From contig JAHLKT010000004.1 in the NCBI GenBank assembly GCA_020444545.1, positions 186,001 through 250,000 on the forward strand: 64,000 bases of DNA. The letters are read 5' to 3'. This document shows, in pieces, positions 32,301 through 63,120 of the stretch. A model generated the notes under the pieces. The model saw only the letters and a list, made by a program, of their open reading frames with translations. It did not search any database and was not told where the DNA came from. The translations under genes were made by a program, and so were the position numbers. This DNA is from Desulfarculaceae bacterium. GTDB taxonomy: Bacteria > Desulfobacterota > Desulfarculia > Desulfarculales > Desulfarculaceae. Each line of letters opens with the position of its first letter. The first letter of the stretch is position 1.

Positions 32301-34727
32301 ATGAGCGAGCAAAACCAAAACGTCGAGCCCCGGGTGGGGGTGTATGTCTGCCACTGCGGACTGAACATCGCCGGGGTGGTGGACTGCGAGGCGGTGGCCG
32401 ATTACGCCGCCGGCCTGGACGGGGTGGTGGTGGCCCGGCACGACGGCTACTGCTGTTCCGAGCCGGGCCAGAACCGCATCCAGCAGGACATCGCCGAGCA
32501 GGGGCTCAACCGGGTGGTGGTGGCCTCCTGCTCACCGCGCCTGCACGAGACCACCTTCCGCCAGTGCCTTTCCGGGGCGGGGCTCAACCCCTACCTCCTG
32601 GAGATGGCCAACTTGAGGGAGCAGTGCTCCTGGGTGCACGGCGCCGAGCCGGACGCGGCCACGGACAAGGCCCGCGACCTGGTGCGCTCGGCCGTGGCCC
32701 GCACCCGGGGCCTCACCGTGCGCCACGAGATCGAGGTGCCCATGGCCAAGTCCACCTTGGTCATCGGCGGCGGCGTGGCAGGAGTGCAGTCCGCCTTGGA
32801 CCTGGCCGACGCGGGCTATCAGGTAACCCTGGTGGAGAAGGAGCCCAGCATCGGGGGCATGATGGCCCGGCTGGACAAGACCTATCCCACCATGGACTGC
32901 TCCATATGAATACTCGGGCCTAAGATGGCGGATGCCGGTCGGCATCCAAACATAACGCTGCTCACGGGCAGCCAGGTCGAGTCGGTTAGCGGTTATGTGG
33001 GCAACTTCACCGCCCGCATCCTCAAGAAGGCCCGCTTCGTGCGCGAGGACCAGTGCACCGCCTGCGGCGACTGCGTTGAGGTTTGCCCGGTGGTGGTGCC
33101 CGACGAGTTCAACGTGGGCCTTTCCTCGCGGCGCGCTATCTATCAGCCTTTTCCCCAGGCCGTGCCCTCGGCCTATGTGTTGGACCAGGCCAACTGCCTG
33201 GGCCACGACCCCATCAAGTGCGGCAAGTGCGCCGAGGCCTGCCAGAAGAACTGCATCGACTTCGACATGAACGACGAGGAGATCGAAGTCGAGGTGGGCA
33301 CCATCATCGTGGCCACGGGCATGGAGGTCTACGACCCCACCGTCTTGGACGAATACGGCTACACCCGCCACCAGAACGTGCTCACCTCTTTGGAGCTGGA
33401 GCGCCTGATCTCCTCGGGCGGCCCCACCCAGGGCGAGGTGGTGCGCCTCACCGACCGCGAGCGCCCCAAGTCGGTGGCCTTCATCCAGTGCGTGGGCTCG
33501 CGCTCCCAGCGGCGGGGCAACCCCTATTGCTCCAACATCTGCTGCATGAACACCATCAAGAGCACCTTGCAACTCAAGGAGCACTACCCGGACATCGAGC
33601 TCAAGGTCTTTTACATCGACATCCGCGCCTTTGGCAAAGGCTTCGAGGACATGTTCCGCCGCTCCCGCGGCGAGGGGGTGCACTTCATCCGGGGCCTGCC
33701 CGGCGAGATCCAAGAAGACCCGGACACCGGCGACCTGATCCTCACCGTGGAGAACACGGCCACCAACCAGCTGGAGGAGCACCGGGCCGAAATGGTGGTG
33801 CTGGCCACAGGCGTGCATCCGCCCGAGGAGATGCACATCGTCCAAGAAATGCTGGCCCTGCAAAAATGTTCGGACGGCTTCTACCTTGAGGCGCATCCCA
33901 AGCTGCAACCAGTGGACTCGGCCACGCGGGGCATCTTCTTCGCAGGCTGCGCCGAGGGGCCCAAGGACATCAAGGAATCGGTGACTCAGGCTTCGGCCGC
34001 GGCCGCCCGGGCCATGCGCCTGATGACCCCGGGCCGCCTGCTGGTGGAGGCCATCACCGCCGAGGTGAGCCCCGAGGGCTGCACCAAGTGCGGCATCTGC
34101 GCCAAGGTCTGCCCCTACAACGCCATCGTCTTCGACAAGAAGTCCGGCAAGCCGGCAATGGTCACCGAGGCGGCCTGCGCCGGCTGCGGCACCTGCGCGG
34201 CCGAGTGCCCCTCGGACGCCATCCACATGCACCACTTCACCGACGACCAGATCAACGCCCAGATCGACGCCATCCTGGAGAACGACCCCTCCGGCGTCAT
34301 CCCGGTGTTCGCCTGCAACTGGTGCTCCTATGCCGGGGCCGACTTCGCGGGCGTTTCGCGTTTGCAATACCCGGCCAACACCCGCCTGATCCGCACCATG
34401 TGCTCGGGCCGGGTGGACGAGGACTTCATCTGGCGGGCCTTCTCCCAGGGCGCGGCGGTGGTGCTGGTGAGCGGCTGCCACTTCGGCGACTGCCACTACA
34501 TCGACGCCAACCACTGGACCGACAAGCGCATCAAGCGGATGCACCGCAAGATGGAAAAGCTGGGCATCCGGCCCGAGCGGCTGCAACTGGAGTGGATCAG
34601 CGCGGCCGAAGGCGTGCGCTTCCGCGATGTGATGCAGGGCATGGAAACCCTGCGCGCCGGGGTCAGCGCCGAGGAGATCGAGCAGACCCAGCGCATCCTG
34701 GCCGAGCAGGAGAAAAAGAAAAAGTAG
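32301..34727 (+). CDS. hdrA: Selenocysteine-containing HdrA with C-terminal MvhD fusion
   Basis: An 808-residue selenoprotein if TGA 32907-32909 is read as Sec203. In order: an N-terminal domain (VCHCG at 16-20), FAD site [19 protein letters not shown] (about 154), the HdrA motif DCSI-Sec-ILGPKM, an inserted ferredoxin domain ([12 protein letters not shown] about 251; [12 protein letters not shown] about 307), thioredoxin-reductase-like halves, two more [4Fe-4S] motifs (about 595 and 627) and an MvhD-like domain from about 665 ([12 protein letters not shown]). HdrA is the FAD-bearing bifurcating core of Hdr complexes. Before the TGA the frame ends at 202 codons and after it the same frame runs to 34727, with no gap in the HdrA homology. 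A SECIS-like hairpin follows the TGA. Confidence 0.9.
32907..32947 (+). promoter_or_regulatory. In-frame UGA and SECIS-like hairpin
   Basis: The TGA (32907-32909) is followed by a hairpin of 7 bp (32930-32936 with 32941-32947) capped by GGTC, with the loop starting 28 bases after the TGA. This meets the bacterial SECIS pattern: a stem 3-prime of UGA with GGU in the apical loop, about 16-37 bases away. Confidence 0.85.
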
Positions 34728-38485: not shown

Positions 38486-39253
38486 TTAGACGCCTCCCTC
38501 TCCCAGATAGGCTTCGACCACCTCGGGTATCTTCACGATCTGTTCCGGCGTGCCGTCGGCGATGATGGTGCCGAAGTTCAACACGATGATGCGGTCCACG
38601 ATCTTCATGAGCTGTTGCAGCTTGTGCTCGATGATGATCATGGCCGGGCCCTCGCTGTGCAGTCGCCCGAAGCGCCCGCCCTTGTGCAGGCGCGCCACCG
38701 ACTTGGCCATCAGCTCGGTCTCGGCCGGGCTAAGACCGCCGAAGGGCTCGTCCAGGATGAGCAGCTCCGGGTCCGTGGCCACGGCCCGGGCCACCTCCAG
38801 GCGCTTCAAGTCGCCCTGGCTCAGGGTGGAGGCCTTTTCCAGGGCCATGTCCGAGATGCCCGCGAACTCCAGGGCGTCCATGGCCTTGGCCTCCACCTTT
38901 TTCACCCACTCGCCGCGCTTCATGGCCCGGGGGCTCAGGCAAGAGACCATCACGTTGGCGATGATGGGCAGCCGCCGGAAGGGGCGCATGTTCTGGAAGG
39001 TGCTGGCGATGCCCAGGTTCACGATGTCGTAGGCCTTGGACCCGGTGATGTTCTTGCCCTTGAACCTGACCGTGCCCTGGTCCGGCTTGAGGATGCCGTT
39101 GATCAGGCGCACCAGGGTGGTCTTGCCCGCGCCGTTGGGGCCGATCAGCCCCACTATCTCCTCGCGGCCCAGGTCGAAGCTCACGTCGTTGGTGGCGGTG
39201 AGGCCGCCGAAGTCCTTGCGCAGCCCCTTCACTTCCAGGAAGGGAGGGATCAT
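38486..39253 (-). CDS. livG: Branched-chain amino acid-type ABC transporter ATPase
   Basis: A 255-residue ATPase with Walker A GPNGAGKTTLV, signature LSQGDLKRLEVAR and Walker B LLILDEPFGG. The signature begins LSQGD rather than LSGGQ, a known variant in this subfamily. It overlaps the ligase gene by ATGA. Confidence 0.9.
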   Translation of the reverse strand: MIPPFLEVKGLRKDFGGLTATNDVSFDLGREEIVGLIGPNGAGKTTLVRLINGILKPDQGTVRFKGKNITGSKAYDIVNLGIASTFQNMRPFRRLPIIANVMVSCLSPRAMKRGEWVKKVEAKAMDALEFAGISDMALEKASTLSQGDLKRLEVARAVATDPELLILDEPFGGLSPAETELMAKSVARLHKGGRFGRLHSEGPAMIIIEHKLQQLMKIVDRIIVLNFGTIIADGTPEQIVKIPEVVEAYLGEGGV

Positions 39254-40968
39254 GCCACTGCCTCCTCGCCCTCCTCGCGCAGTTCGCGGCGGCTCACCTT
39301 GCCCACGTCGGTCTTGGGCAGCTCGCCGCGGAACTCGATGATCTGGGGCACCTTGTAGTGGGCCAGCTCGTCCTTGCAGTAGGCGATGAGCTCCTCCTCG
39401 GACAGCTTGCCCCGAGCCTCGGCCTGCAAGACCACGTAGGCCTTGATCAGCTGCCCCACCTTGGGATCGGGAACCCCCACCACGCCGGCCGCCTTGACCT
39501 GCGGGTGGTTGTAGAGCACCTCCTCCACGTGCTTGGCGAATACCGAGTAGCCCTTGTGCTTGATAAGGTCGCGCTTGCGGTCGAAGAAATGGAAGTAGCC
39601 CTCCTCGTCCATGCTCACCAAATCGCCGGTGCGCATCCAGCGCATCCCCGCCATGTCCAGCATGGTCTCGGCGTTATCCTGGTCGCGCTGCCAATAGCCC
39701 TGCATGATGTTGGGCCCGCTGAGCACCATCTCGCCCACCTCGCCCAGAGGCACCGCCTGGTCGCCGTCCACCTCCACGATGGCCGCGGTCACGTTGGGAA
39801 CCGGCAGGCCGAAGGAGCCCTTCTTGGTCCGGTGCAGGGGGTTGGTGTGGCTCACGGCGGCGGTCTCGGTCATGCCGTAGCCCTCCACGATGCGGCTGCC
39901 GGTGCGCCGCTCCCAGTCGTCCACCGTGGTCTCGTGCAGAGTGTCGGCCCCGCACACGATGATCTTGAGCTTCTTCCAGTTCACCCGCGCGGTCTTGTCG
40001 TACTCCTTCAAGTACTCGTAGAGGGTGGGCACCCCGTAGAAGCCCGAGGCGTTGTAGCGCTCCACCGCAGCCAGGATCTCGTCCATGTCCGGGGTGGTGA
40101 ACAGCACCAGGGTGAAGCCGTGCACCAGGCCGGTGAGCATGATCACCACCTGCCCGTAGATGTGGAACAAGGGCAGGAAGGCGATGATGGTCTCGTCCCC
40201 GTCCACGAACTGGTGTTCCCAAAAGGCCAGGGCCTGGGCTTGGCAAGACACGATGTTCTGGTGGGTGAGCATGGCCGCCTTGGGGTGGCCCGTGGTGCCG
40301 CCGGTGTAGGGCAAGGCGGCCAGGTCCGTGGCCGGGTCGATGCTCACCGCCGGCGGGTTGGGCGAGCTCTGCTTCAACAGGTCCTGCATTTTCAGCAAGC
40401 CCGCCTGGGCGATCAAGGCCGCGTCGGGTATGTGCATGCCGCCGTAGGCCTTGGCCACCACGCCCTTGGCGAACATCTTCTTGAGCCTGGGCAGATACTC
40501 GTCGATGCCAGTGATGATCACGTTGTCCAAGTCCACACCGGTCGCGGCCACGTTGTCATAGAGGATGTCCTGGCACACCACCGTCTTGGCCCCGCTGTCG
40601 CTGAGCTGGTGGCGCACCTCCTGGCTGGTGTAGACCGGGCTCACCGGAGTGACCACAGCGCCCACCTTGAGCGCGCCCATGTAGGCAATGATGTACTGCG
40701 GACAGTTGAGCAGGTACAGGGCCACCCGGTCGCCCTTTTGCACCCCCAGCCCGGCCAGGGCGTTGGCAAAGCGGTCGGCCAGCTCCCGAAGCTCCTTGTA
40801 GGAGATCTTCTTGCCGTAGAAAATCACCGAGGTCTTGTTGCCGTACTTCTGGGAGACCTCGTCGAACAGCTCGGGGATGGAGACCGAGGGTAGGTCCAGT
40901 TCCGGGGCGACGGTGTCCGGATAATGCTTAAGCCATGGCTTGGAAAGGTAAGCCTGCATCGGGTCCAT
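39250..40968 (-). CDS. Long-chain fatty acid--CoA ligase (AMP-forming)
   Basis: A 572-residue acyl-CoA synthetase. The AMP-binding P-loop is LPYTGGTTGHPKAAMLTH, the adenine site VEGYGMTETAA, and the C-terminal hinge RKRDLIKHKGYSVF with the catalytic lysine region (PKTDVGKVSRREL). It would activate an imported acid to acyl-CoA. Its position inside a Liv-transporter operon (between livM and livG) indicates capture of the transported substrate. AGGTGA precedes ATG 40968. Confidence 0.9.
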   Translation of the reverse strand: MDPMQAYLSKPWLKHYPDTVAPELDLPSVSIPELFDEVSQKYGNKTSVIFYGKKISYKELRELADRFANALAGLGVQKGDRVALYLLNCPQYIIAYMGALKVGAVVTPVSPVYTSQEVRHQLSDSGAKTVVCQDILYDNVAATGVDLDNVIITGIDEYLPRLKKMFAKGVVAKAYGGMHIPDAALIAQAGLLKMQDLLKQSSPNPPAVSIDPATDLAALPYTGGTTGHPKAAMLTHQNIVSCQAQALAFWEHQFVDGDETIIAFLPLFHIYGQVVIMLTGLVHGFTLVLFTTPDMDEILAAVERYNASGFYGVPTLYEYLKEYDKTARVNWKKLKIIVCGADTLHETTVDDWERRTGSRIVEGYGMTETAAVSHTNPLHRTKKGSFGLPVPNVTAAIVEVDGDQAVPLGEVGEMVLSGPNIMQGYWQRDQDNAETMLDMAGMRWMRTGDLVSMDEEGYFHFFDRKRDLIKHKGYSVFAKHVEEVLYNHPQVKAAGVVGVPDPKVGQLIKAYVVLQAEARGKLSEEELIAYCKDELAHYKVPQIIEFRGELPKTDVGKVSRRELREEGEEAVA

Positions 40969-51493: not shown

Positions 51494-52237
51494 ATGCGCC
51501 TGAAAGACAAAAAAGCCATCATCACCGGCGCGGCCCAGGGCATCGGCCGGGCCACGGCCCTGCTCTTTGCCCGCGAAGGGGCCGACCTCACCGTCTGCGA
51601 CCTGCGCGAAGACGCCCTCAACTCCCTGGCCGAGGAAGTCCGCGCCCTGGGGCGGCGCTGCCACGTGGCCCTGGGCAGCGTGGTGGAGCGCGCTTTTGTG
51701 CAAACGATGGTGGCCGACACCATTCAGGAGCTGGGCGGCCTGGATATCCTGATCAACAACGCTGGTATCATCCGCGACCGCATCGGCCACAAGATGAGCG
51801 AAGACGAGTTCGACTCGGTGGTGGCGGTGAACCTGAAGGGCGCTTTCAACTGCCTACAGGCCTGCATGATCCCTCTGCGCGAGCAGGGCTCCGGGGCCAT
51901 CGTCAACGTATCGTCGGTGAGCCGCTACGGCGCGGCGGGCCAGTTGAACTACTCGGCCACCAAGGGCGGGGTGGCCAGCATGACCGGCGCGGCGGCCAAG
52001 GAGCTGGGCCCCAAGGGAGTGCGCGTGAACTGCGTGGCTCCGGGTTTCATCGAGACCGAAATGCTCTCCACGGTGCCCCAGGAGACCCTGGAGATGTACC
52101 GCCGCTTCCTGGTGCCTCTGGGGCGCATGGGCCAGGCCGGGGAGGTGGCCTCGGTGATGCTCTTCCTGGTCTCGGAGGACGCCTCCTTTGTCAACGGCCA
52201 GACCATCAACGTGGACGGCGGCACCTACACCTATTAG
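51494..52237 (+). CDS. Short-chain dehydrogenase/reductase (FabG-like)
   Basis: A 247-residue classical SDR. The cofactor motif is TGAAQGIGRA (11-20), NNAG is present, and the catalytic Ser-Tyr-Lys appears in VSSVSRYGAAGQLNYSATKGG. The Asp after strand 2 (VCDLRED) suggests NAD(H) preference. It may reduce or oxidise 3-oxoacyl or hydroxyacyl-CoA. It stands behind the terminator and is convergent with the next gene. Confidence 0.9.
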   Translation: MRLKDKKAIITGAAQGIGRATALLFAREGADLTVCDLREDALNSLAEEVRALGRRCHVALGSVVERAFVQTMVADTIQELGGLDILINNAGIIRDRIGHKMSEDEFDSVVAVNLKGAFNCLQACMIPLREQGSGAIVNVSSVSRYGAAGQLNYSATKGGVASMTGAAAKELGPKGVRVNCVAPGFIETEMLSTVPQETLEMYRRFLVPLGRMGQAGEVASVMLFLVSEDASFVNGQTINVDGGTYTY

Positions 52238-52244
52238 GCGCGGC

Positions 52245-53126
52245 TCAGTCCTCGTCGCCCCAGGGTTGGCGTTTGCCCTCGGGGGTGTAGCGGTAAAATC
52301 CCTTGCCCGCCTTGCGTCCCAGGCGGCCCTCTTCCACCATGCGCTTGACCAGGCCCGAGCGGCTGATCAGCTTTTCTTCGCCCATGGAGACCAGGAAATC
52401 GTCGATCAGGGCGATGGTGTCCAGGCCGGCGTTGTCCGCGATCTCGAAGGGCCCCGCCTTCCAGCCGTAGCCCAGGCGCATGCCCGCGTCCACGTCCTCG
52501 GGCGTGGCCACCCCGGCGGCCACCAGGTCCGCAGCCTCGCTGAGCGCCGCGGCGAAGACTCGGTTCATCACGAAACCGGGCAAGTCGCGCCGCACCTTGA
52601 CCGGCGTCTTGCCCAGGGAGCGGATGAAGGCCAGGCTCCGCTCGAACACCTCATCCGAGGTGGCCTCGGCCTGGATAACCTCCACCAAGCCCATGAGCGG
52701 CACCGGCCCGAAGAAGTGCAGGCCCAATACACGCTCCGGGTGGGCGGTGGCTCCGGCCAGGCGGCCGATGGGAATCGAGGAGGTGTTGGAGCCGATGGGC
52801 GTGGCTTCCGGCGCCAGGCGATCCAGCTCGGCGAAGAGCTCCAGCTTGAGCGCCTCTTTTTCCAAAGCCGCCTCGATGATCCAGTCGGCAGCGGACGCGG
52901 CGGCCAGGTCTTGCTCCAAGCTCAGCCGGTCCAGCACCTCTTCCGGCGTCTCGCCGATCACTCCCTTGGCGGCCAACTTGCCCAGGGAGACCTCCATGCC
53001 CGCCCGGGCCTTGTCCAAGGCTTTGGGCGACACGTCCATCAGATGCACCCGCCGCCCGCTCGTCGCGCAGACCTGGGCGATGCCCCCGCCCATGAACCCG
53101 GCTCCCACCACCAAAACCCGCTCCAT
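52245..53126 (-). CDS. 3-hydroxyacyl-CoA (3-hydroxybutyryl-CoA) dehydrogenase
   Basis: A 293-residue enzyme. The Rossmann motif VLVVGAGFMGGGIAQVCA is at the N-terminus, the catalytic His in HFFGPVPLMGLVEVI, and NTSSIPI contributes to the site. Last gene of the minus-strand operon 58210-52245. It oxidises 3-hydroxyacyl-CoA. Confidence 0.92.
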   Translation of the reverse strand: MERVLVVGAGFMGGGIAQVCATSGRRVHLMDVSPKALDKARAGMEVSLGKLAAKGVIGETPEEVLDRLSLEQDLAAASAADWIIEAALEKEALKLELFAELDRLAPEATPIGSNTSSIPIGRLAGATAHPERVLGLHFFGPVPLMGLVEVIQAEATSDEVFERSLAFIRSLGKTPVKVRRDLPGFVMNRVFAAALSEAADLVAAGVATPEDVDAGMRLGYGWKAGPFEIADNAGLDTIALIDDFLVSMGEEKLISRSGLVKRMVEEGRLGRKAGKGFYRYTPEGKRQPWGDED

Positions 53127-53151
53127 GCCCAGCCTCCTCGCGCCGCGCGCC

Positions 53152-54480
53152 TTACTCCACGGTGAACAGCTTCTCGTCGAACTCGGGCTTGTCCTTGTAG
53201 CGCCGCATGTAGGCGGCGGGCATGGCGTCCATGTTGGCGAACAGGGCCGGGTCCACCATGATGCCCGCCTGTTGCAGGGCCTCGATGATCTGCTCCGGCT
53301 GGGGCGGACAGCCCTTCACCGGGATCATCTGTTTGATGTCCGGGTTGTCCTTATGCGCCTGATACATGCACTTGCCCAAGAGAACCGTCTTGTTGGCTCC
53401 GGGCCGGGGTTGCATGGCCTTGCCGGTGAGAACCTCCACATTGTCGAAGGGCTCGCCCTTCCAAGCCCCGACTATGCCCGCCAGCACGGTGCCGTTTATG
53501 CCGGAACAATAGGTGCACAGGGTGGAATCGTACTTGTAATAGCCCAGGCCCTGGATGCCCTTCTTCTCCAGCACTATGGGCATGGTGTCGCCCTCGGTGT
53601 AGGGGAAGGCCCAGCCGTGGGGCTTAATGTTCTCCTCCACCGGCTCGCCCAACACTTCCACGTCCGACAGGTCCAGGGGACGTCCCTCCCGTTCCAGGGC
53701 GCGTGTCAGGTAGGGCACCGTGTCCGGCGGATGGCCCAGGAGGGTGGAACCCACCTTGTCGGCCGAAAGCAGGTCCCAGGAGGCCACCAGCAGATCGCGG
53801 CGGTGCATGATGCCGTCAAAGCCGGGGCCATACTCCGAGGTGTAGGTGCCGTCGATCACCGTGAGCACCGGCGGCAGGGGCAGGGCCAGGCGCGAGACCC
53901 AGTTGTGCAGGTCCTTTTCCGGGTCCGCGTTGTGGCAGCGCTTGCGCGACTTCACGTCGATCAGGCCCTTCAAGTTCTTGAGCCCCAGGCTGACCATGGT
54001 CTGGGCGTGGGTCTTCATCACCGGCAGGCTCACCACCAGGTCGCCCTCCAGCACGTCGGCGTTGAAGCTCAGCTTCATGTCGTCGCCCAGGTCAACTTCC
54101 TTATAAGGCCTCGTGAAGGCGTCCAGCACCTTGACCCCGTAGCGCTGTTTAAGCTTGTTGTAGCCCAGGTACTCGAAGGCGTGGGCCGGGGTGGTGGTGT
54201 CCTTGTAGCGCCCCAGCACCATGCCTTCGATGATGGTGATGTCGTCCACCCCGCGCTCCTTGAGCAGGCGCACCATGTCGTGCACCAGGCGGCTGGTGGT
54301 CACCACTCCCCACTTGGGAAAAGGCGCGCTGGCAGTCCAAAAGACGATGTTGGGCTTGAGAAACACCTTGGCCCCGGTGGAGAGGCGCTCCAGACCGCCG
54401 CACAGCTCCAAGGCCCGGCGCACCGGCTCGTAGGCCTGGTCGTAGCGAACCAGGGAAACCGCGTATTTGCTCATGACCAT
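53152..54480 (-). CDS. DUF362 domain protein
   Basis: A 442-residue protein. The DUF362 signature VFLKPNIV and SLPVMKTHAQTMVSLGLKNLKGL is clear. Cysteines are grouped: CTYC near residue 320, GKC near 372 and KGC near 389, which could bind an Fe-S cluster. DUF362 proteins are uncharacterised redox-related proteins, often with ferredoxin domains. Here it is between a kinase-like gene and the hydroxyacyl-CoA dehydrogenase, so an electron-transfer or substrate role is likely. AAGGAGG is 8 bases before ATG 54480. Confidence 0.8.
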   Translation of the reverse strand: MVMSKYAVSLVRYDQAYEPVRRALELCGGLERLSTGAKVFLKPNIVFWTASAPFPKWGVVTTSRLVHDMVRLLKERGVDDITIIEGMVLGRYKDTTTPAHAFEYLGYNKLKQRYGVKVLDAFTRPYKEVDLGDDMKLSFNADVLEGDLVVSLPVMKTHAQTMVSLGLKNLKGLIDVKSRKRCHNADPEKDLHNWVSRLALPLPPVLTVIDGTYTSEYGPGFDGIMHRRDLLVASWDLLSADKVGSTLLGHPPDTVPYLTRALEREGRPLDLSDVEVLGEPVEENIKPHGWAFPYTEGDTMPIVLEKKGIQGLGYYKYDSTLCTYCSGINGTVLAGIVGAWKGEPFDNVEVLTGKAMQPRPGANKTVLLGKCMYQAHKDNPDIKQMIPVKGCPPQPEQIIEALQQAGIMVDPALFANMDAMPAAYMRRYKDKPEFDEKLFTVE

Positions 54481-54505
54481 GCTCCCGCCCTCCTTCTGGG
54501 GGGCA

Positions 54506-55573
54506 TTACAAAGAGGCGTTGTCCATCACCCGCTCGGCCTTGGCCAGCAGGGCGCGCACCGCGTGGGGCAGCCGCGCGAAGCGCTGGTCCTTGGTCTGGC
54601 CGTGATAAAAGCGGTAGTAGATCTGCTGGGCGATCACGGCCAGGCGGAAAAGGCCGAAGGTGTAGTAGAAGCCGATGTGGTCCATCACCCGCCCGGTCTT
54701 TTGGCTGTAATACTCCACCGCCTGGGCGCGGGTCAGGCTGCCGGGCAGATAGGTGAGCATGGCCGCGTTGGCCAGGAGCTCCGGCTCGTCGTCGGCCTGG
54801 GCCCAATAGGCCAGGGTGCAGGCCAGGTCCATGAGCGGATCGCCGATGGTGGCCATCTCCCAGTCCAGCACCCCGATGATCTTCAGAGGGTCGGCCGGGT
54901 CCAGCACCACGTTGTCCAGCTTGAAGTCGTTGTGGATCACCGTGCCCACCGCGTTGTCCGGAGGCAGGCCGGCCGACAGCCAGGCCATCACCGCCTCGCC
55001 GTCGGGCACGTCCGGAGTGCGCGCGTTCACGTAGCGTTTGCTCCAGCCCTCCACCTGCCGCCGCGCGTAGCCGGCCGGCTTGCCGAAGTCGCCCAGCCCG
55101 GCGGCCACGTAGTCCACCGCGTGCAACTCGGCCATCAGCTCCACCAGGCGCTCGGTGAGCCGGCGCATCTGGGCGGGCCCGAAGTTCAGTTCTGGCGGCA
55201 TCTCCTTGCGCAGGATGATGCCCGAGATGCGCTCCATGACGTAGAAGGGGCAGCCCATCACCGCCTCGTCCGAGCAATAGGCCAAGGGCCGGGGGCAATA
55301 GGGGAACACCGGGTGCAGGGCCGAGAGGATGCGATACTCCCGTCCCATGTCATGGGCGCTCTTGGCCTTGGTGCCGTGGGGCGGGCGGCGCAGCACCATC
55401 TGCTTTTCGCCCGCGCTGATCAGATATGTCAGATTGGAGTAGCCCGAGGGGAACTGGGCAATCTTCACCGCCCCGCACAAGCCGGGGATGCTCTCGCGCA
55501 GATAGGCCTCCACCCGGGCCGCGTCCAACTCTTCGCCCTGCCTGGTGGGGGCTGCCAGGTCCATCACGCTCAT
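54506..55573 (-). CDS. APH-family phosphotransferase (ACAD10/11 and LvaA-like)
   Basis: A 355-residue protein kinase-fold phosphotransferase of the aminoglycoside/choline kinase type. The Brenner motif is HNDFKLDN (214-221) and the metal Asp is in LDWEM (D237). The N-terminal PSGYSNLTYLI is the nucleotide loop. Members fused to or next to ACAD10/11 phosphorylate the 4-hydroxyl of 4-hydroxyacyl-CoA. The start ATG overlaps the tetR stop (ATGA). Confidence 0.85.
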   Translation of the reverse strand: MSVMDLAAPTRQGEELDAARVEAYLRESIPGLCGAVKIAQFPSGYSNLTYLISAGEKQMVLRRPPHGTKAKSAHDMGREYRILSALHPVFPYCPRPLAYCSDEAVMGCPFYVMERISGIILRKEMPPELNFGPAQMRRLTERLVELMAELHAVDYVAAGLGDFGKPAGYARRQVEGWSKRYVNARTPDVPDGEAVMAWLSAGLPPDNAVGTVIHNDFKLDNVVLDPADPLKIIGVLDWEMATIGDPLMDLACTLAYWAQADDEPELLANAAMLTYLPGSLTRAQAVEYYSQKTGRVMDHIGFYYTFGLFRLAVIAQQIYYRFYHGQTKDQRFARLPHAVRALLAKAERVMDNASL

Positions 55574-56277
55574 GCCGCCGCAACCTCCTCCGCCTCGCCG
55601 GCCCGGCACAAGCGCAGGGCCGCGTCCACCACAAAGGCGGCGTAACGGTCCACGCTTACCCGGCGCTTGGCGTATTTCCAGCGCTTGAGGTACCAGTCCT
55701 GCACCATGGCCTTGATCATTGCCGCGGCCAGGCCGGGGTCCACCTCGCCGAAGGCCCCCTGCTTGCGGCCCTTGCGGATGATGCCCGCGAAGAGCCGCTC
55801 GGTGACCTGCTCGCTCTCCTTGGCCCGCTCCTTCTCCCGCTCGCCCAGATGGCGTGCCTCCATGTAGGAGAAGAAGAACCAGGGCTGCATGGCCTCGCTC
55901 AGGAAAAGGTGGGCGCGTATGGCCGCGCCCAGCTGCCCGGCCGGCTCGGCCAGGGAGGCGAAGCTTTCCCGCAGGATGCGCCCGGTGAGGCGGCGTCCCG
56001 TGGCCTGGATCATCTGAAGCAGCTCGTCCTTGTTGCCCACGTAATCATAAAGCGCGCCCAGGGACAGGCCGCTGGCCTTGCTCAGGTCGCGCATGGTCAT
56101 TGCCTGGAAACCCTTCTGGTTGCTCACCCGGAGGGTGGCGTCGAAGATGCGCTCCAGGTTCTTCACCGCCAGGGCCTCTTTCTTGACCTTGATGGCCTGG
56201 CGGTTGGCGGCCAGCATCTCCTGGCAGAAGTCGCGGCGCGAAACCGCCACCGCGCGGCTGAACTCGGCGAAGTTCAT
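55570..56277 (-). CDS. TetR-family regulator of the acyl-CoA operons
   Basis: A 235-residue regulator. It has an N-terminal extension of about 38 residues before the HTH (KNLERIFDATLRVSNQKGFQAMTMRDLSKASGLSLGALYDYVGNKDELL). The C-terminal domain is helical. It probably binds acyl-CoA or an acid and controls the divergent promoters at 58.3 kb, where a TetR-type palindrome is found. Confidence 0.85.
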   Translation of the reverse strand: MNFAEFSRAVAVSRRDFCQEMLAANRQAIKVKKEALAVKNLERIFDATLRVSNQKGFQAMTMRDLSKASGLSLGALYDYVGNKDELLQMIQATGRRLTGRILRESFASLAEPAGQLGAAIRAHLFLSEAMQPWFFFSYMEARHLGEREKERAKESEQVTERLFAGIIRKGRKQGAFGEVDPGLAAAMIKAMVQDWYLKRWKYAKRRVSVDRYAAFVVDAALRLCRAGEAEEVAAA

Positions 56278-57482
56278 CGCAGGCCGTGCTCCGCCGCGTA
56301 CTCCTTGAGGATGCGCTTGGCCACCGAGATCTTGTGCACCTCGTCAACTCCGTCGTAGATGCGCGCCGAGCGCTCGCCCCGGTAGAAGCTGGCCAGAACG
56401 GTGTCGTCGGTGACCCCCAGGCCGCCGTGCACCTGCACTGCCCGGTCCAGCACCCGCTGCATAACCCCTGCGGTGTAGAACTTGATCAAGGAGATGTCCT
56501 GGCGGGCCTCTTTCTGGCCCTGGGTCTCGATGCGCCAGGCGCAGTTTAGCACCATCAGGCGGGCGGCGCGTATCTCGGCCGCGCTCTCGGCGATCCAGGC
56601 GCGGATGATCTGCTGGTCGGCCAGGGTCTTGCCCGGAGCGATATCCCGGGTCAGGGCGCGCTCGCAGATCATGTCCAGGGCCCGGTTGCTGATGCCGATC
56701 CAACGCATGCAGTGGTGGATGCGCCCCGGCCCCAGGCGCTCCTGGGCGATGACGAAACCGTGGCCTTCGGGCCCCAGCAGGTTGGCCTTGGGCACCCGGC
56801 AGCTTTGGTAAAGAATCTCGCCGTGGCTGTGCCAGCCCGATCCGGCATGGCCCATCACCGGGATGTTGCGCACCAGGTTGAAGCCGGGCGTGTCGGTGGG
56901 CACGATGATCATGGAGGCCTGGAGATGAGGCGGGGCCTCGGGGTTGGTCACCGCCATGACGATGGCGAAGGACGCGCCGTCGGCCGAGGAGGTGAACCAC
57001 TTGTGCCCATTGATCACGTAGTCGTCGCCGTCGGCTACGGCGGTGGTGTCCAATAGCACCGGGTTGGAGCCGGGCTGGTCGGGCTCGGTCATGGAGAAGC
57101 AGGAGCGGGTCTGTCCGGCGACCAGCGGGGCCAGAAAACGCTCCTTCTGCTCCGGAGTGCCGTACTTGATGAGAATCTCGATGTTGCCCGCGTCCGGCGC
57201 CTGGCACCCGAACACGTAGACCCCGGTGGGGGTGCGGGCCAGGGCCTCGCAGACCAGGCCGTACTCCACCAGGTCCAGTCCCATGCCGCCGTACTCCTTG
57301 GGGTGCAGAGGGCTCCACAGCTCCATGCGCTTGACCATCTCTCGTTTCTCGGCCAGCACCGGCTCCAGCTCCTCCCAGGGGCGGTGGATGAAGTCCTGCT
57401 CCAGGGGCACCAGCTCCTTTTCCACGAACTCGTTGATGAGCTCCAGGATGGTCTGCATTTTGGGCGATACGGCGAAATCCAT
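56274..57482 (-). CDS. Acyl-CoA dehydrogenase (ACAD10/11-like)
   Basis: A 402-residue dehydrogenase. FAD segments are FSMTEPDQPGSNPV and HKWFTSSADGA. The C-terminal segment is IYDGVDEVHKISVAKRIL. D377 replaces the usual catalytic Glu of IYEG; ACAD10/11-type enzymes also have Asp there. It overlaps tetR by 4 bases. With the upstream kinase gene it may convert 4-phosphoacyl-CoA to enoyl-CoA. Confidence 0.88.
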   Translation of the reverse strand: MDFAVSPKMQTILELINEFVEKELVPLEQDFIHRPWEELEPVLAEKREMVKRMELWSPLHPKEYGGMGLDLVEYGLVCEALARTPTGVYVFGCQAPDAGNIEILIKYGTPEQKERFLAPLVAGQTRSCFSMTEPDQPGSNPVLLDTTAVADGDDYVINGHKWFTSSADGASFAIVMAVTNPEAPPHLQASMIIVPTDTPGFNLVRNIPVMGHAGSGWHSHGEILYQSCRVPKANLLGPEGHGFVIAQERLGPGRIHHCMRWIGISNRALDMICERALTRDIAPGKTLADQQIIRAWIAESAAEIRAARLMVLNCAWRIETQGQKEARQDISLIKFYTAGVMQRVLDRAVQVHGGLGVTDDTVLASFYRGERSARIYDGVDEVHKISVAKRILKEYAAEHGLR

Positions 57483-57511
57483 TGCTTGCTTACCTCCCCA
57501 TGGGGTGTTGG

Positions 57512-58210
57512 TCAGCGATAGGTGACCATCTCCGCCCGGCCCTGGGTCTCCAGATGCATGGTGGAGTTGAATTCAGCCAGGGAGAACTCCTCGCGGTTGT
57601 ACATGAAGCTTGAGAGCGAGGCGTTCTTGATCACGTAGGTCAGCTTAAGGGCTACCCCGTGCTCCAGGTTCAGGGCGCGCTGCATGATGGCCGAGATGGG
57701 CCCGCCCGAAGTGAACAGCACCACCTTCTTGCCCCGCCCGTTGGCCGCGCACACCCGCTCCACCGCCCGGCCCACCCGGCCCAGAAACAGTTCCCAGGTC
57801 TCGGGCAGTCCCTGGTCGTATTGGCCGGTGATCCAGCGGTGCATGGCTGCGTCGTAGATGGTCTGAAAGGCGCGGCGATCGCTGAACATCGTGGCCACTG
57901 CCCGGTCCACGGCCGGGTTCTCGCGGCGCAGCTCCGGCAGCAGGGCCTTGATGATGGGGCCGGAGGCGAACTCGTTGAACTCGGGCATTATCTCCAGGAC
58001 GGGCGGGGACTCCAGGCTCTCCAGCACCGCCTGGGCGGTGTCCCGCTGACGGGCCATGTCGCCCGAGTAGGCCGCGTCGAAGGAGAGCCCCAGCCCGGCC
58101 AGGTGCTCCCCGGTCAGGCGGGCCTGCGCCTGGCCCAGCTCGGACAGGCGGTCGTAGTTTTCCTGGCCAAAGGAGGCCTGGCCGTGGCGCATGACGTAAA
58201 AGAGGCTCAT
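57512..58210 (-). CDS. Histidine phosphatase superfamily protein lacking the second His
   Basis: A 232-residue protein. The phosphate-accepting motif MRHGQAS (H9) is intact. At the position of the second catalytic His, where family members have SHGG, this protein has FTSGG (S168). It may be a variant phosphatase or a binding protein. First gene of the minus-strand operon, so it is expressed with the kinase and dehydrogenase. Confidence 0.75.
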   Translation of the reverse strand: MSLFYVMRHGQASFGQENYDRLSELGQAQARLTGEHLAGLGLSFDAAYSGDMARQRDTAQAVLESLESPPVLEIMPEFNEFASGPIIKALLPELRRENPAVDRAVATMFSDRRAFQTIYDAAMHRWITGQYDQGLPETWELFLGRVGRAVERVCAANGRGKKVVLFTSGGPISAIMQRALNLEHGVALKLTYVIKNASLSSFMYNREEFSLAEFNSTMHLETQGRAEMVTYR

Positions 58211-58302: not shown

Positions 58303-58318
58303 CGAACGAATGTTCGTT
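58303..58318. promoter_or_regulatory. TetR-type operator between divergent promoters
   Basis: CGAAC (58303-58307) and GTTCG (58312-58316) flank GAAT; an overlapping repeat AACGAA/TTCGTT spans 58305-58318. It lies 8 bases from the minus -35 and 5 bases from the plus -35, so one bound dimer could block both promoters. Confidence 0.7.
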
Positions 58319-58391: not shown

Positions 58392-59156
58392 ATGCGCGTC
58401 CTGTGCCTGCTCAAGCAAGTCTGCGAACCGGAGAGCCTCTTTGACCTGCAAGAGGGCCGCCCGGTGTTGCGCCCGCCCGCGCGCTGGAAGATGAGTTCCT
58501 ACGACGAGTACGCCCTGGAGGCCGCCCTGGCCCTCAAGGACGCCCGGCCCGACACGGAAGTGACGGCCCTCTCCCTGGGCCCGGCCCGCTGCGAGGCCGT
58601 GCTGGAGCGGGCCCTGGGCATGGGCGCGGACCGGGCGGTGCGCCTGGACGACCTGGACGAAACCATTGCCCGCCCCCTGGCCGTGGCCTCGGCCGTGGCC
58701 GCCTGGGCCGAGGGCCAAGGCTTCGATCTGATCCTGGCCGGGGTCATGTCCGACGACGCCATGCAAGGCGCGGTGGGGCCCATGCTGGCCGAGCTGCTGG
58801 GCCTGCCGCTGGCCACCGGCGCGGTGGAGCTGGCCCTGGCCGAGGACGCCAAGTCGCTGACCGCGCAGCGGGAGATGGAGGGCGGCCGCCGCCAGGAGGT
58901 AACGCTCCCCCTGCCCGCCCTGGCAACCATCAACTCCGGCCCCGCCCGCCCGCGCTACCCTACCCTGTCCAAGCTACTCAAAGCCAAAGAGACCGCGCCG
59001 CTGGTAATCGACCCTACCGCCCCGGCCCCGCCCCTGGAAGCGGTGCGTGAATATCGTCTGCCGGTAAAGACCCGGGCAGGCCTGATGCTCTCCGGCGACA
59101 TTCAGGCCAAGGCGTCCCGACTGTTGGACCTGCTGCGCGAAAGGGCCCTGCTGTGA
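58392..59156 (+). CDS. etfB: Electron transfer flavoprotein beta subunit
   Basis: A 254-residue EtfB. It has the opening VLCLLKQV, the DEYALEAALALKD helix, ALSLGPARCEAVLERALGMGADRAVRL, and the C-terminal PTLSKLLKAKE that binds acyl-CoA dehydrogenases. GGGGAGAGCC precedes ATG 58392. It overlaps etfA by GTGA. Confidence 0.92.
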   Translation: MRVLCLLKQVCEPESLFDLQEGRPVLRPPARWKMSSYDEYALEAALALKDARPDTEVTALSLGPARCEAVLERALGMGADRAVRLDDLDETIARPLAVASAVAAWAEGQGFDLILAGVMSDDAMQGAVGPMLAELLGLPLATGAVELALAEDAKSLTAQREMEGGRRQEVTLPLPALATINSGPARPRYPTLSKLLKAKETAPLVIDPTAPAPPLEAVREYRLPVKTRAGLMLSGDIQAKASRLLDLLRERALL

Positions 59157-60151
59157 GCCTGGCGGGCAAGCCCCTGGTGGTGGCCGTGGCCGAGCACGGC
59201 CCCGAGGGCCTGGCCCCGGTCAGCCTGGAGCTGGCTGCCTGCGCCCGCGAGCTGGCCCAAGCCCTGGGCGGCGAGGCCCGCCTCCTGGTGCTGGGCGATG
59301 GCGTGGAGCCCTTAGCCAGCGAGGCCGCCCGCCTCAGCGGCCTGACCGTGACCGGCCTTGAGGTGCCGGGGCTAACCGAATTCTCCGGCGAGGCCTACCG
59401 CGCCTTGCTGGCCGAGCTGCTGCCCGCCTGGTCCCCGGCCATGGTGTTGGCCGCCCACACCACCAGCGGCCTGGACTGGGCCCCCGGCCTGGCAATGCGT
59501 TTAGGCGTGGCCTTGGTCAGCGGAGTCGAGGCCATCGAGCATGGCGAGAGCGGCCCCCTCTTCCGCCGCGCCGCCTGGCATGGCAAGCTCAGCGAGTTGG
59601 TGGAGGCGCAAGCCGAACCCCTGGTACTCACGGTGCAGCCCGGCTCCTTCCCTGCGCTGCCGCCGGCCGAAACGCCCGGCTCGGTAGAGGTGCTAACCCG
59701 CGAGTTGCCGCCCTGCCGCGCGCGGGTGCGGCCGGGGCAGGCCCCGCTGGAGCGCGACGCGGCCCTGGGCGCGGCCTCGGTGGTGGTGGCCGCCGGGCGC
59801 GGGGTGGGCAAGCCGGAAAACCTGGAGCCCCTGCGCCGCCTGAGCGCCCTGTTCTCCAACGCCGCCCTGGCCGGTTCGCGGCCGGTGTGCGACCTAGGCT
59901 GGCTGGGCTACGCCAGGCAGGTGGGCCTTACCGGAGCCACGGTAAGCCCCCGCCTATACCTGGCCTGCGGCATCTCCGGGGCGCGGCAGCATACCGTGGG
60001 CATGCAAGGTTCGGGCTACATCGTGGCCATCAACAACGACCCCAACGCGGCCATTTTCAACCTGGCCGACGTGGGGGTGGTGGAGGATTTGAACGCCTTT
60101 ATCCCCGCCCTGTTGGAGCTGGCCGGGGCCGGGCCGGGCCGGGAGGGCTGA
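59153..60151 (+). CDS. etfA: Electron transfer flavoprotein alpha subunit
   Basis: A 332-residue EtfA with the FAD-binding C-terminal half: AAGRGVGKPENLEPL, then LYLACGISGARQHTVGMQGSGYIVAINNDPNAAIF, ending DLNAFIPAL. It takes electrons from the acyl-CoA dehydrogenases and passes them to a quinone reductase or to the downstream OYE-type enzyme. GTG 59153 overlaps etfB. Confidence 0.93.
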   Translation: MSLAGKPLVVAVAEHGPEGLAPVSLELAACARELAQALGGEARLLVLGDGVEPLASEAARLSGLTVTGLEVPGLTEFSGEAYRALLAELLPAWSPAMVLAAHTTSGLDWAPGLAMRLGVALVSGVEAIEHGESGPLFRRAAWHGKLSELVEAQAEPLVLTVQPGSFPALPPAETPGSVEVLTRELPPCRARVRPGQAPLERDAALGAASVVVAAGRGVGKPENLEPLRRLSALFSNAALAGSRPVCDLGWLGYARQVGLTGATVSPRLYLACGISGARQHTVGMQGSGYIVAINNDPNAAIFNLADVGVVEDLNAFIPALLELAGAGPGREG

Positions 60152-60248
60152 ACCCACGCCCGCGCGCGGCGATTGCCTCTTGGGCCGCAATGCCGTATAT
60201 GAAGGCTGAGTGGGGGTAGTGCCCAAACCGCTGACAAGGATGCGCACC

Positions 60249-61019
60249 ATGGAACTGCTATACGAAAAGAAAGAGCACATCGCGCTCTTTACGCTTAATC
60301 GGCCCGAGGCCTTCAACGCCATGAGCCCGGACCTGTTCCGGCAGATGCACGACGCCTGCGAGGACTTCGCCCAGGACCCCCAGCTGTGGGTGGGCGTGTT
60401 CACCGGGGCCGGGGAAAAGGCCTTCTGCGCCGGGGCGGACGTTAAAACCTGGCTGCCCTTTGTAAAGGAATGCCGCGAGCGCCCCTGGCTCATGCCCACC
60501 ACTCCCCTTCGGGGCATGGAGCTGGACAAGCCGCTGATCGCGGCCATCAACGGCGTGGCCCTGGGCGGCGGCCTGGAGCTGGCCCTGGCCTGCGACCTGC
60601 GTATCGCCTCCGAGAAAGCCCGTTTCGCCTTCCCCGAGGCGCGCCTGGGCATCCTGCCCCGCCTGGGCGGCACGGTGCGCCTGCCCCGCCTGGTGGGCAG
60701 CGCCAAGGCCGCCGAGCTGATGTTCACCGGCCGGCGCATCGCAGCGGCCGAGGCCCTGGACATGGGCCTGGTCAACCGGGTGGTGCCCCAGGAAGACGTC
60801 CTGACCTCCGCCCTGGAGCTGGCCGGCGAGATCTGCCAGTGCGCCCCCCTGGCGGTGCAGGCCATCAAGAAGAGCCTGCGCCGGGGCGTGGGCATGTCCA
60901 TTGAGGAAGCCCTGTGGTGCGAGAACGCCCTGGGCATGCCCCTGTACGACACCGAGGACTACGAAGAGGGCCGCAAGGCCTTTGCCGAAAAGCGGCCCCC
61001 GGCGTTCCAGGCCAAGTAG
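60249..61019 (+). CDS. Enoyl-CoA hydratase/isomerase (crotonase)
   Basis: A 256-residue crotonase. GGGLELALACDLRIA gives E110 and PEARLGILPRLGGT gives E130, both catalytic glutamates. The oxyanion loop AFCAGADVKTW is present. AAGGA is 8 bases before ATG 60249. Confidence 0.92.
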   Translation: MELLYEKKEHIALFTLNRPEAFNAMSPDLFRQMHDACEDFAQDPQLWVGVFTGAGEKAFCAGADVKTWLPFVKECRERPWLMPTTPLRGMELDKPLIAAINGVALGGGLELALACDLRIASEKARFAFPEARLGILPRLGGTVRLPRLVGSAKAAELMFTGRRIAAAEALDMGLVNRVVPQEDVLTSALELAGEICQCAPLAVQAIKKSLRRGVGMSIEEALWCENALGMPLYDTEDYEEGRKAFAEKRPPAFQAK

Positions 61020-61062: not shown

Positions 61063-63120
61063 ATGCAGAAATTCTTTACGCCCGCTTCGGTGGCCGTGGT
61101 GGGGGCCAGCCCCGACCGCACCGGCCAGCACCTGCTGGCCAACACGGCCCTGGCTCCCGGGGTCTCGGTCTATCCGGTCAACCCCAAGTACAACGAGCTG
61201 GCCGGGCTGCCCTGCTTTCCCTCGGTGAAGGACATCCCCGGCCCGGTGGACCTGGCCGTCTTGCTGGTGCCCGCCCGCTTCGTGCCCCAGGTGCTCCGGG
61301 ACTGCGCGGCCAAGGGGACCCGGGCAGTGATGATCCAGAGCGCCGGCTTCGCCGAGACCGGCGAGGAGGGCCACGCCTTGCAGGAGGAGTGCCTGGCCAT
61401 CGCCCGCCAGGCGGATATGCGCCTGTGGGGCCCCAACTGCATGGGCCTGGTGGACGTGCCGGGCCGCCGCTTCTTTACCTTCATGCACAGCCGCATCACC
61501 GACGCCCTCTTGCCCCATGGCGGCCTGTCCCTGGTGGTGCAGAGCGGCATGCTCTCGGCCGGGTTCCTGGCCGACCTGGCCACCCGGCGCGGGGTGGCGG
61601 TGAGCAAGGCCTGCTCTCTGGGCAACAAGTGCGACGTGGACGAGTGCGACGTGCTTCAGGTGCTCCTGGACGACCCCGAGACCAAGGCGGTGGGGCTCTA
61701 CCTGGAGTCCCTGCCCCGGGGCCGCCGCTTCATGGAGTTGGCCGAGGGCGCGGACAAGCCCCTGGTGGTGCTCAAGTCCGGGCGCAGCCGCTCCGGGGCC
61801 AAGGCCGCCCTGAGCCACACCGCCAGCCTGGCCGGAAACGCCCGCCTCACCGAGGGGCTCCTGGCCGCGGCCGGGGTGACCACGGCGCGGGACTTCCACC
61901 AGATGGTGGACCTGGGGCGCACCCTGGCCATGCTGCCCGATCTGCCCGCCAAGGCCAAGACGGCGGTGCTCACCTTCAGCGGCGGGGGCGGCATCCTCTC
62001 CTGCGATCTATTGGAGGAGCAGGGCCTGGAGGTGGCCGAGCTGGCCCCGCCCACCCTGGAAGCCCTGGCCGGACTCTTCCCGGCCTGGATGCCACCCTCC
62101 AACCCGGTGGACCTGTGGCCGGCCATGGAGCTGCACGGCGGCTCGGAAACCTTGCACCGGGCGGTGGAGATCGTGGCCCAAGACCCGGGGGTGGACCTTA
62201 TGTTTGTGCACTCCTTCCTGGGCGCGGCCAGCAAGGGCATGGACCTGGAAGCCATGCGGGCCGCGGCCCATGGGGGCGGCAAGGCCCTGGCCTTCTGGGG
62301 GCTGGGCCTCACCGAGCCCATGAAGGAGTTCGAGGGCCAGGCCCTGGCCGGCGGGGTGCCCCTGTTCGGCGAGATGGCCCGGGCGGTGGATTGCCTGGCC
62401 GCGGCCGCCCGCTGGCGCAAGAGCGAGCGCGCTCCCCGGCCCCCGGCCTCGGGCCGGGCCCTGCCCGGCGGCCTGCCCCCGCGCAAGGGCGTATGGGACG
62501 AGCACGACTCCAAGCACCTCCTGGCCGCCTGGGACATCCCGGTGGTGGCTGAGACGGCCACGGACGAGCTGGCCGCTGCCCAGGACGCGGCGGCCAAGCT
62601 GGGTTGGCCGGTGGTGCTCAAGGGCCTGCTGCCCGGCGAGGTGCACAAAACCGAGAAGGGCCTGGTGGTGCTGGGGGTGCGCGGCCCCGAGGAGTTGGCC
62701 GAGCAGTGGGAGCGCCTGCGCGAAGCCATGGACGGCCAGGGACGCATCCTGGTGCAGCGCCAGCAGCGGCCCGACTACGAGCTGATCGCGGGCTATCTGC
62801 GCGACCCTCAATTCGGCCCCTGCGTGATGCTGGGCTTGGGCGGGGTGCTGGCCGAGCTGGAGCCGGACGTGGCCTTTGAGCTGGCCCCCCTGGACCACCA
62901 ACGCGCCCTGGCCATGCTGGGCCGCCTTCGCGGAGCCAAGCTTCTGGAAGGCTACCGGGGCCAGGCCCCCCTGGACCGCGAGGCCCTGGCCGGGCTGCTC
63001 TGCCGTTTGGGCGACCTGGGCGCCTCCCAACCGGGCATCACCCAGATCGACATCAACCCCGTGGCCGTGGAAAAGGGCGCACCCTTGGCCCTGGACGCCA
63101 GCATCATCTGGGAGGCCTAG
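61063..63120 (+). CDS. ADP-forming acyl-CoA synthetase (acetate--CoA ligase, NDP-forming)
   Basis: A 685-residue fused alpha-beta enzyme. The CoA-binding domain opens FFTPASVAVVGASPDRTGQHLL. The phosphohistidine loop is ALSHTASLAGN (about residue 251). The C-terminal third is an ATP-grasp domain (KGLLPGEVHKTEKGLVVLGV). It interconverts acyl-CoA and acid with ADP to ATP, saving energy in an anaerobe. The start ATG follows AGGA. Confidence 0.9.
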   Translation: MQKFFTPASVAVVGASPDRTGQHLLANTALAPGVSVYPVNPKYNELAGLPCFPSVKDIPGPVDLAVLLVPARFVPQVLRDCAAKGTRAVMIQSAGFAETGEEGHALQEECLAIARQADMRLWGPNCMGLVDVPGRRFFTFMHSRITDALLPHGGLSLVVQSGMLSAGFLADLATRRGVAVSKACSLGNKCDVDECDVLQVLLDDPETKAVGLYLESLPRGRRFMELAEGADKPLVVLKSGRSRSGAKAALSHTASLAGNARLTEGLLAAAGVTTARDFHQMVDLGRTLAMLPDLPAKAKTAVLTFSGGGGILSCDLLEEQGLEVAELAPPTLEALAGLFPAWMPPSNPVDLWPAMELHGGSETLHRAVEIVAQDPGVDLMFVHSFLGAASKGMDLEAMRAAAHGGGKALAFWGLGLTEPMKEFEGQALAGGVPLFGEMARAVDCLAAAARWRKSERAPRPPASGRALPGGLPPRKGVWDEHDSKHLLAAWDIPVVAETATDELAAAQDAAAKLGWPVVLKGLLPGEVHKTEKGLVVLGVRGPEELAEQWERLREAMDGQGRILVQRQQRPDYELIAGYLRDPQFGPCVMLGLGGVLAELEPDVAFELAPLDHQRALAMLGRLRGAKLLEGYRGQAPLDREALAGLLCRLGDLGASQPGITQIDINPVAVEKGAPLALDASIIWEA

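Follow-up and report, generated by a model that had tools for sequence, protein, structure and literature searches.

Does a sulfate reducer use phosphorylation to remove the hydroxyl group of a 4-hydroxyacyl-coenzyme A (CoA), as mammalian ACAD10/ACAD11 and the LvaA/LvaC enzymes of Pseudomonas do? This question is raised by a minus-strand operon of six genes (52245-58210) in a 64,000-nucleotide stretch of a Desulfarculaceae bacterium genome, here called the window (assembly GCA_020444545.1, contig JAHLKT010000004.1, positions 186,001-250,000 of the forward strand). Because residues, trees and operon conservation support a phosphorylation-elimination route well, we consider it likely that this operon encodes an anaerobic route of the ACAD10/11 or LvaA/LvaC type, in which 4-hydroxyacyl-CoA would be phosphorylated and the phosphate eliminated to give 2-enoyl-CoA with no net redox change. 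A first-pass annotation had described a six-gene module with the kinase motifs HNDFKLDN and LDWEM, the acyl-CoA dehydrogenase (ACAD) motif IYDG and a tetR gene between the two enzyme genes; all of this was confirmed, coordinates included. The same annotation had inferred an Lva/ACAD10-11 route acting on gamma-hydroxy acids, lactones or levulinate, of which our analysis upholds the route and not the assignment of levulinate or lactones as substrate. The genes are separated by 25-29 bp or overlap by 4 bp and are, from first to last:

57512-58210, minus strand: histidine-phosphatase-like protein, 232 residues (Pfam His_Phos_1, E 1e-23)
56274-57482, minus strand: ACAD of the ACAD10/11 or LvaC type, 402 residues, predicted 4-phosphoacyl-CoA lyase (Pfam ACAD)
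55570-56277, minus strand: regulator of the TetR family, probably a repressor of the module that responds to a ligand (Pfam TetR_N, TetR_C_24)
54506-55573, minus strand: APH-fold small-molecule kinase, 355 residues, predicted 4-hydroxyacyl-CoA kinase (Pfam APH, E 1e-54)
53152-54480, minus strand: DUF362 protein, 442 residues, with the LarA (nickel-pincer racemase) fold (Pfam DUF362, E 3e-35)
52245-53126, minus strand: 3-hydroxyacyl-CoA dehydrogenase, predicted to take the next step after enoyl-CoA hydration (3HCDH_N, E 2e-56; 3HCDH, E 3e-27)

The dehydrogenase and the kinase

The closest solved structures to the window ACAD are those of mouse and human ACAD11 (PDB search; best E 1e-82), whose numbering was fixed by the cryo-EM chains 8v3u and 8v3v, which are kinase-dead and ACAD-dead mutants. 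D377 of the IYDG motif aligns with D753 of mouse ACAD11, the catalytic aspartate that replaces the usual glutamate, and R249, R254, H257, C258, M259 and R260 correspond to R626, R631, H634, C635, M636 and R637, so that all seven ACAD10/11-specific residues tested are kept. The phosphate-binding and catalytic role of these residues has been tested in ACAD11 (PMC12440821). A 12-residue stretch, RLGPGRIHHCMR, is identical in mouse ACAD11; for ACAD11 R86, no counterpart could be placed in the alignment with the window ACAD. The genome encodes 14 ACADs, among which the window ACAD is the only one to score above E 1e-55, and the residue signature is absent from eight others, which keep the usual pattern. 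With eight of the 13 other ACADs of the genome as outgroup, a maximum-likelihood tree joined the window ACAD, ACAD11, Pseudomonas LvaC-like proteins and plasmid relatives in one group (100/100), long branches being flagged where the outgroup joins. The ACADs of anaerobes formed their own clade inside this group, with members from the phylum 62-91% identical to the window ACAD, compared with ~40-59% for the rest of the group.

The kinase carries both expected motifs, with D216 and N221 of HNDFKLDN corresponding to the catalytic residues D220 and N225 of ACAD11, and R172 corresponding to the CoA-contacting R176. It is the only kinase of this type in the genome. Its PDB matches were led by 9o56 (350 bits), 3dxp (196) and the ACAD11 kinase (169). 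The grouping with aminoglycoside or choline kinases that the first-pass annotation had considered as the contrary outcome was not observed: the best aminoglycoside-type match, viomycin kinase, reached ~25 bits, the NCBIfam aminoglycoside and thiamine kinase models scored far below their cut-offs, and choline kinase was absent from both the PDB match list and the NCBIfam model list.

In the kinase tree, which was rooted at its midpoint and from which outgroup kinases of the genome were absent, the window kinase fell in a broad group with kinases of Desulfobacterota, Spirochaetota, Pseudomonas and Azospirillum, outside the ACAD11/3dxp clade. It was also far from the only LvaA-like sequence in the tree; this sequence, from Pseudomonas (locus L190), sits on a very long branch and differs from the KT2440 LvaA, which makes the comparison with LvaA itself a weak one. 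LvaA, LvaB and LvaC of KT2440 were represented in our comparisons by relatives only. The kinase thus appears to have the right partner and the right residues, yet its exact substrate is not readable from orthology. At another locus (L050, 999-5920), three kinases of this family stand in tandem, which suggests substrate diversification.

Conservation of the operon and a predicted TetR operator

Across 297 genomes of the phylum, the kinase was found in 32 and the clade ACAD in 35, with both present in 29 (Fisher p 5e-31, uncorrected for relatedness); at an adjacency threshold of 3 kb, the ACAD gene neighbours 30 of the 33 kinase copies. A gene for the phosphatase-like protein lies within the same distance of 23 of 36 ACAD copies, and none was detected in 8 of the 35 ACAD-bearing genomes. 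The order phosphatase-ACAD-TetR-kinase recurs in Desulfobacterota and Spirochaetota, usually with a divergent etfBA pair. Among the loci compared, divergent etfB was present in 27/35, TetR in 29/36 and DUF362, an accessory gene, in 8/29; part of these loci had been retrieved via the phosphatase, the count of which is biased in this set.

Comparison of the divergent intergenic regions revealed a palindrome, CGAACGAATGTTCGTT, that has no other match within the window and that a repeat finder had missed because its arms are only 6 bp long. In the 350 bp ahead of the phosphatase gene, 31/96 loci had a site agreeing with it at 10 or more of its 12 positions, compared with 8/288 shuffled sequences; these loci belong to Desulfarculaceae, other Desulfobacterota and Spirochaetota. 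The TetR gene is kept at the same place in most related operons. The palindrome fits a TetR operator and is predicted to serve both divergent operons, the second of which begins as follows:

58303-58318, unstranded: predicted TetR operator CGAACGAATGTTCGTT in the divergent promoter (interlocus comparison)
58392-59156, plus strand: EtfB, first gene of the divergent operon (weak to moderate EtfB model matches)
59153-60151, plus strand: EtfA (model match)
60210-61019, plus strand: enoyl-CoA hydratase of the crotonase family (model match)
61063-63120, plus strand: ADP-forming acyl-CoA synthetase, possible activating enzyme (model match)

From these data we infer the following reaction, substrate and regulation. 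The substrate would be some 4-hydroxy acid or gamma-lactone. The kinase (54506-55573) would use ATP to phosphorylate the 4-hydroxyl of the 4-hydroxyacyl-CoA, and the ACAD (56274-57482) would then act through its aspartate base D377 and the phosphate-binding cluster of R249, H257 and R260. Its flavin would be transiently reduced and re-oxidised as the phosphate leaves, giving 2-enoyl-CoA without net electron transfer; ACAD10/11 do not need an electron acceptor (PMC11342911). Hydration and the 3-hydroxyacyl-CoA dehydrogenase (52245-53126) would lead the product into beta-oxidation, where the ordinary dehydrogenases of subsequent rounds would rely on EtfBA. TetR (55570-56277) would control the operon together with the divergent etfBA-hydratase-acyl-CoA synthetase operon via the operator at 58303-58318, with an acyl-CoA as the probable ligand that releases it.

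Four observations weigh against this reading. The kinase belongs to a clade apart from ACAD11 and 3dxp, so that it may differ in the hydroxyl it targets and in its chain specificity. Second, Pseudomonas has kinases of the same clade with no ACAD of this type close by. The adjacency of EtfBA would also fit an ordinary dehydrogenase, though the residues of the ACAD argue otherwise. Finally, two HpaB/AbfD-fold proteins in the genome could dehydrate 4-hydroxybutyryl-CoA by another route.

The first two points bear on the possibility that the same phosphate-leaving chemistry acts on another substrate, namely a 5-hydroxy, tertiary or ring-alcohol hydroxyacyl-CoA. In the Pseudomonas loci in question (L101, 7001-10173, and many of L096-L150), a gene for the phosphatase-like protein, in the Ser variant described below, is followed by a short SCP2-like gene, a same-clade kinase 51-55% identical to that of the window and an SDR gene, so that these kinases adjoin SDR and SCP2-like genes and not lva genes. 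Against such a substrate, the pocket residues of the window ACAD are those of ACAD11, and ACAD10 does not act on 5- and 6-hydroxyhexanoate (PMC11342911); we regard it as quite unlikely. An ACAD of this family was found elsewhere in the genome in 35/35 Pseudomonas genomes tested. Less probable still is an ordinary ACAD that works with the adjacent EtfBA and stands beside an unrelated APH-type kinase. The frequency of divergent etfBA at related loci and the operator predicted to be common to both operons would fit such an enzyme, which is contradicted by the aspartate in place of glutamate, the HCMR/R249 cluster, the recurrent adjacency of the kinase gene and the usual pattern seen in the other ACADs of the genome.

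The last point concerns AbfD, the 4-hydroxybutyryl-CoA dehydratase, through which a route from 4-hydroxybutyryl-CoA to enoyl-CoA is known from anaerobes. AbfD likewise turns a 4-hydroxyacyl-CoA into an enoyl-CoA, but by radical flavin/Fe-S chemistry without ATP, and it is unrelated to the window operon. The two HpaB/AbfD-fold proteins of the host genome (L204, 1489-2934; L205, 1486-3171) carry CFQRC and HRQxYGGC motifs, which resemble the AbfD cluster ligands, and are probably 4-hydroxybutyryl-CoA dehydratases; among the NCBIfam models, no AbfD model matched them. One of the two genes adjoins an aminotransferase-like gene.

The histidine-phosphatase-like and DUF362 proteins

The protein encoded by the first gene of the operon keeps the RHGQAS motif (R8, H9, G10), R54 and E80 of histidine phosphatases. 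Profile alignment to CobC and to the histidine family phosphatase 9mmh sets S168, within FTSGG, on the second catalytic histidine. This position was serine in 98/98 homologues, 17 of which had been found via the kinase, the ACAD or the neighbourhood without recourse to a phosphatase motif, and R8, H9, R54 and E80 were invariant across the same 98 sequences. The AlphaFold2 (AF2) model (pLDDT 91) has phosphoserine phosphatases as its closest folds; a PADLOC search with this protein gave no match. The loss of the second histidine suggests, by analogy with the degenerate HAD phosphatase domain of ACAD10, a non-catalytic or altered partner. That domain restrains the ACAD10 kinase (PMC11342911).

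P. citronellolis LA18T also has a phosphatase gene, in a cluster induced by levulinate where kinase, histidine phosphatase, LvaC and LvaD occur together and the phosphatase takes the place of LvaB, the partner of LvaA (PMC6692424). A Ser variant might have been expected in such a cluster and was not seen in the two Pseudomonas clusters of the kinase/ACAD type compared here, which carry a canonical histidine phosphatase with both histidines. Because these two clusters have the canonical enzyme instead of the Ser variant, two phosphatase subfamilies appear to have been recruited to such clusters. Taken with the P. citronellolis cluster, the HAD domain of ACAD10 and the Ser variant of the window, they show that phosphatase folds repeatedly accompany kinase/ACAD chemistry. 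A strict tie to the kinase is ruled out: the phosphatase-like protein is a frequent accessory of the module, since it is found without a kinase nearby at several Pseudomonas loci and is missing from some ACAD-bearing genomes, as noted above.

The two clusters with the canonical enzyme, in Pseudomonas capeferrum WCS358 (L190, 8079-11417) and P. schmalbachii (L191, 8271-10265), also encode an ACAD of the LvaC-like group and may be a second Pseudomonas cluster for 4-hydroxy acids. The former further includes an LvaA-like kinase, a 121-residue open reading frame of LvaB size and quinone-oxidoreductase-, TauD- and BKACE-like genes. At one other locus (L042, 2899-4307), the Ser variant is duplicated in tandem ahead of the ACAD.

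The phosphatase-like protein could also be active and salvage dead-end 4-phosphoacyl-CoA, or the wrong enantiomer, without the second histidine. We doubt this while regarding it as a real possibility: the phosphohistidine nucleophile H9 and R8, R54 and E80 are invariant, the canonical enzyme occurs in the two Pseudomonas clusters, and phosphate removal was proposed by the authors who described the P. citronellolis phosphatase (PMC6692424), but the second histidine is serine in every homologue and the gene is undetected in 8/35 ACAD-bearing genomes.

The DUF362 protein is related to the lactate racemase LarA by fold. The 19 best Foldseek matches of its AF2 model (pLDDT 81) all belong to the LarA family, and VIA-align gave Z 15.8-18.6 over 207-223 residues for LarA, compared with 5.8 for the next fold; the DUF362 profile found no relative in the PDB by sequence, so that the kinship is seen by fold only. 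In a non-significant hhalign alignment, H158, K168 and H183 fall on LarA H174 (catalytic), K184 (NPN-binding) and H200 (Ni ligand) as possible counterparts, and no histidine stands opposite H108, the other catalytic histidine. The protein differs from the LarA superfamily (DUF2088) by a very low sequence similarity and an extra C-terminal cysteine cluster (C322, C325, C371 and C391). The LarA fold is not news because DUF362 and LarA are already joined in one Pfam clan (PMC11770544). The host genome encodes LarC and two LarA homologues. One LarA homologue lies at contig positions 266255-266839, ~16 kb past the window end and beyond genes for a TRAP transporter and glycolate-oxidase-like proteins; in genomes of the same genus, a LarA homologue is found on the kinase contig, ~23-26 kb from the kinase.

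Because the ACAD10 kinase is enantioselective (PMC11342911), our guess by analogy is that DUF362 sets the configuration of the hydroxyl carbon. A fuller scheme seems unlikely at present. In it, the degenerate phosphatase would bind the kinase and/or the 4-phosphoacyl-CoA and regulate or couple the two enzymes, as an independent parallel to the HAD domain of ACAD10 and to LvaB, which binds LvaA, and DUF362 would be a LarA-fold hydride-transfer enzyme inverting the hydroxyl carbon so that an enantioselective kinase could accept either enantiomer.

Genomic setting, known systems and significance

The surroundings of the operon are a fatty- or hydroxy-acid catabolic region. Past the hydratase and the ADP-forming acyl-CoA synthetase, the divergent operon goes on with an Oxidored_FMN enzyme, and beyond the window end lie genes for a sigma-54 regulator, an ACAD, HBDH, a thiolase, an acyl-CoA ligase, the TRAP transporter and the glycolate-oxidase-like subunits. 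Upstream of the module lie a beta-oxidation operon headed by a MerR gene and genes for a branched-chain-type ABC transporter, accompanied by an acyl-CoA synthetase and an ACAD; neighbouring operons hold an SDR (51494-52237) and acyl-CoA synthetases (39250-40968 and 61063-63120). A protein with FlpD and 4Fe-4S domains (32925-34727 of the window) is heterodisulfide-reductase-like and possibly an electron sink of the region. The host is very probably a sulfate reducer because its genome contains dsrA, well over the model cut-off. Elsewhere on the same contig (358070-359209, locus L062), an ACAD frame contains one in-frame TAG, which may reflect a pseudogene, a sequencing error or a pyrrolysine codon.

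LvaA, LvaB and LvaC of the Pseudomonas putida levulinate operon were reportedly described by Rand and colleagues in 2017. The operons of P. putida and P. citronellolis LA18T (PMC6692424) combine a kinase and an Asp-type ACAD as the window operon does, and in the latter species the phosphatase gene at the lvaB place has its parallel in the phosphatase-like gene of the window. The window kinase and ACAD belong to other clades, TetR stands instead of the sigma-54 regulator LvaR, and the divergent etfBA, DUF362 and the sulfate-reducing host are further differences. None of LvaB, LvaD and LvaE was recognised among the operon genes (52245-58210). With these Lva accessory genes unrecognised, and with the kinase branching apart from the ACAD11 clade and at a distance from the LvaA-like sequence, the levulinate assignment is not supported. 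Mammalian ACAD10/ACAD11 have in common with the window enzymes the catalytic aspartate, HCMR with its upstream arginine, the CQAPD motif and an APH-type kinase; the window enzymes differ in being separate polypeptides and in the clade of their kinase. ACAD10 too carries a degenerate phosphatase domain, but of the HAD type, whereas that of the window is of the histidine superfamily.

The reaction of ACAD10/11 was assigned only in 2024-2025, and lva genes have been reported from Alpha-, Beta- and Gammaproteobacteria (PMC6692424). The chemistry is known. Its form here, in an anaerobe and under probable TetR control, with a phosphatase of the Ser variant and a DUF362 protein of LarA fold, looks like a variant not described in the literature searched. 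Judged on the sequences compared here, its new elements appear to be the predicted TetR operator common to the divergent etfBA and kept into Spirochaetota, the Ser-variant phosphatase and the presence of a LarA-fold DUF362 in the operon. The module offers a genomic context for finding the function of DUF362 and a test of why such kinases repeatedly accompany phosphatase folds with lost catalytic residues. If our reading of this conserved and separately regulated module is true, 4-hydroxy acids and gamma-lactones would enter beta-oxidation in strict anaerobes (sulfate reducers, Syntrophus-like bacteria and Spirochaetota) by a redox-neutral step paid for in ATP.

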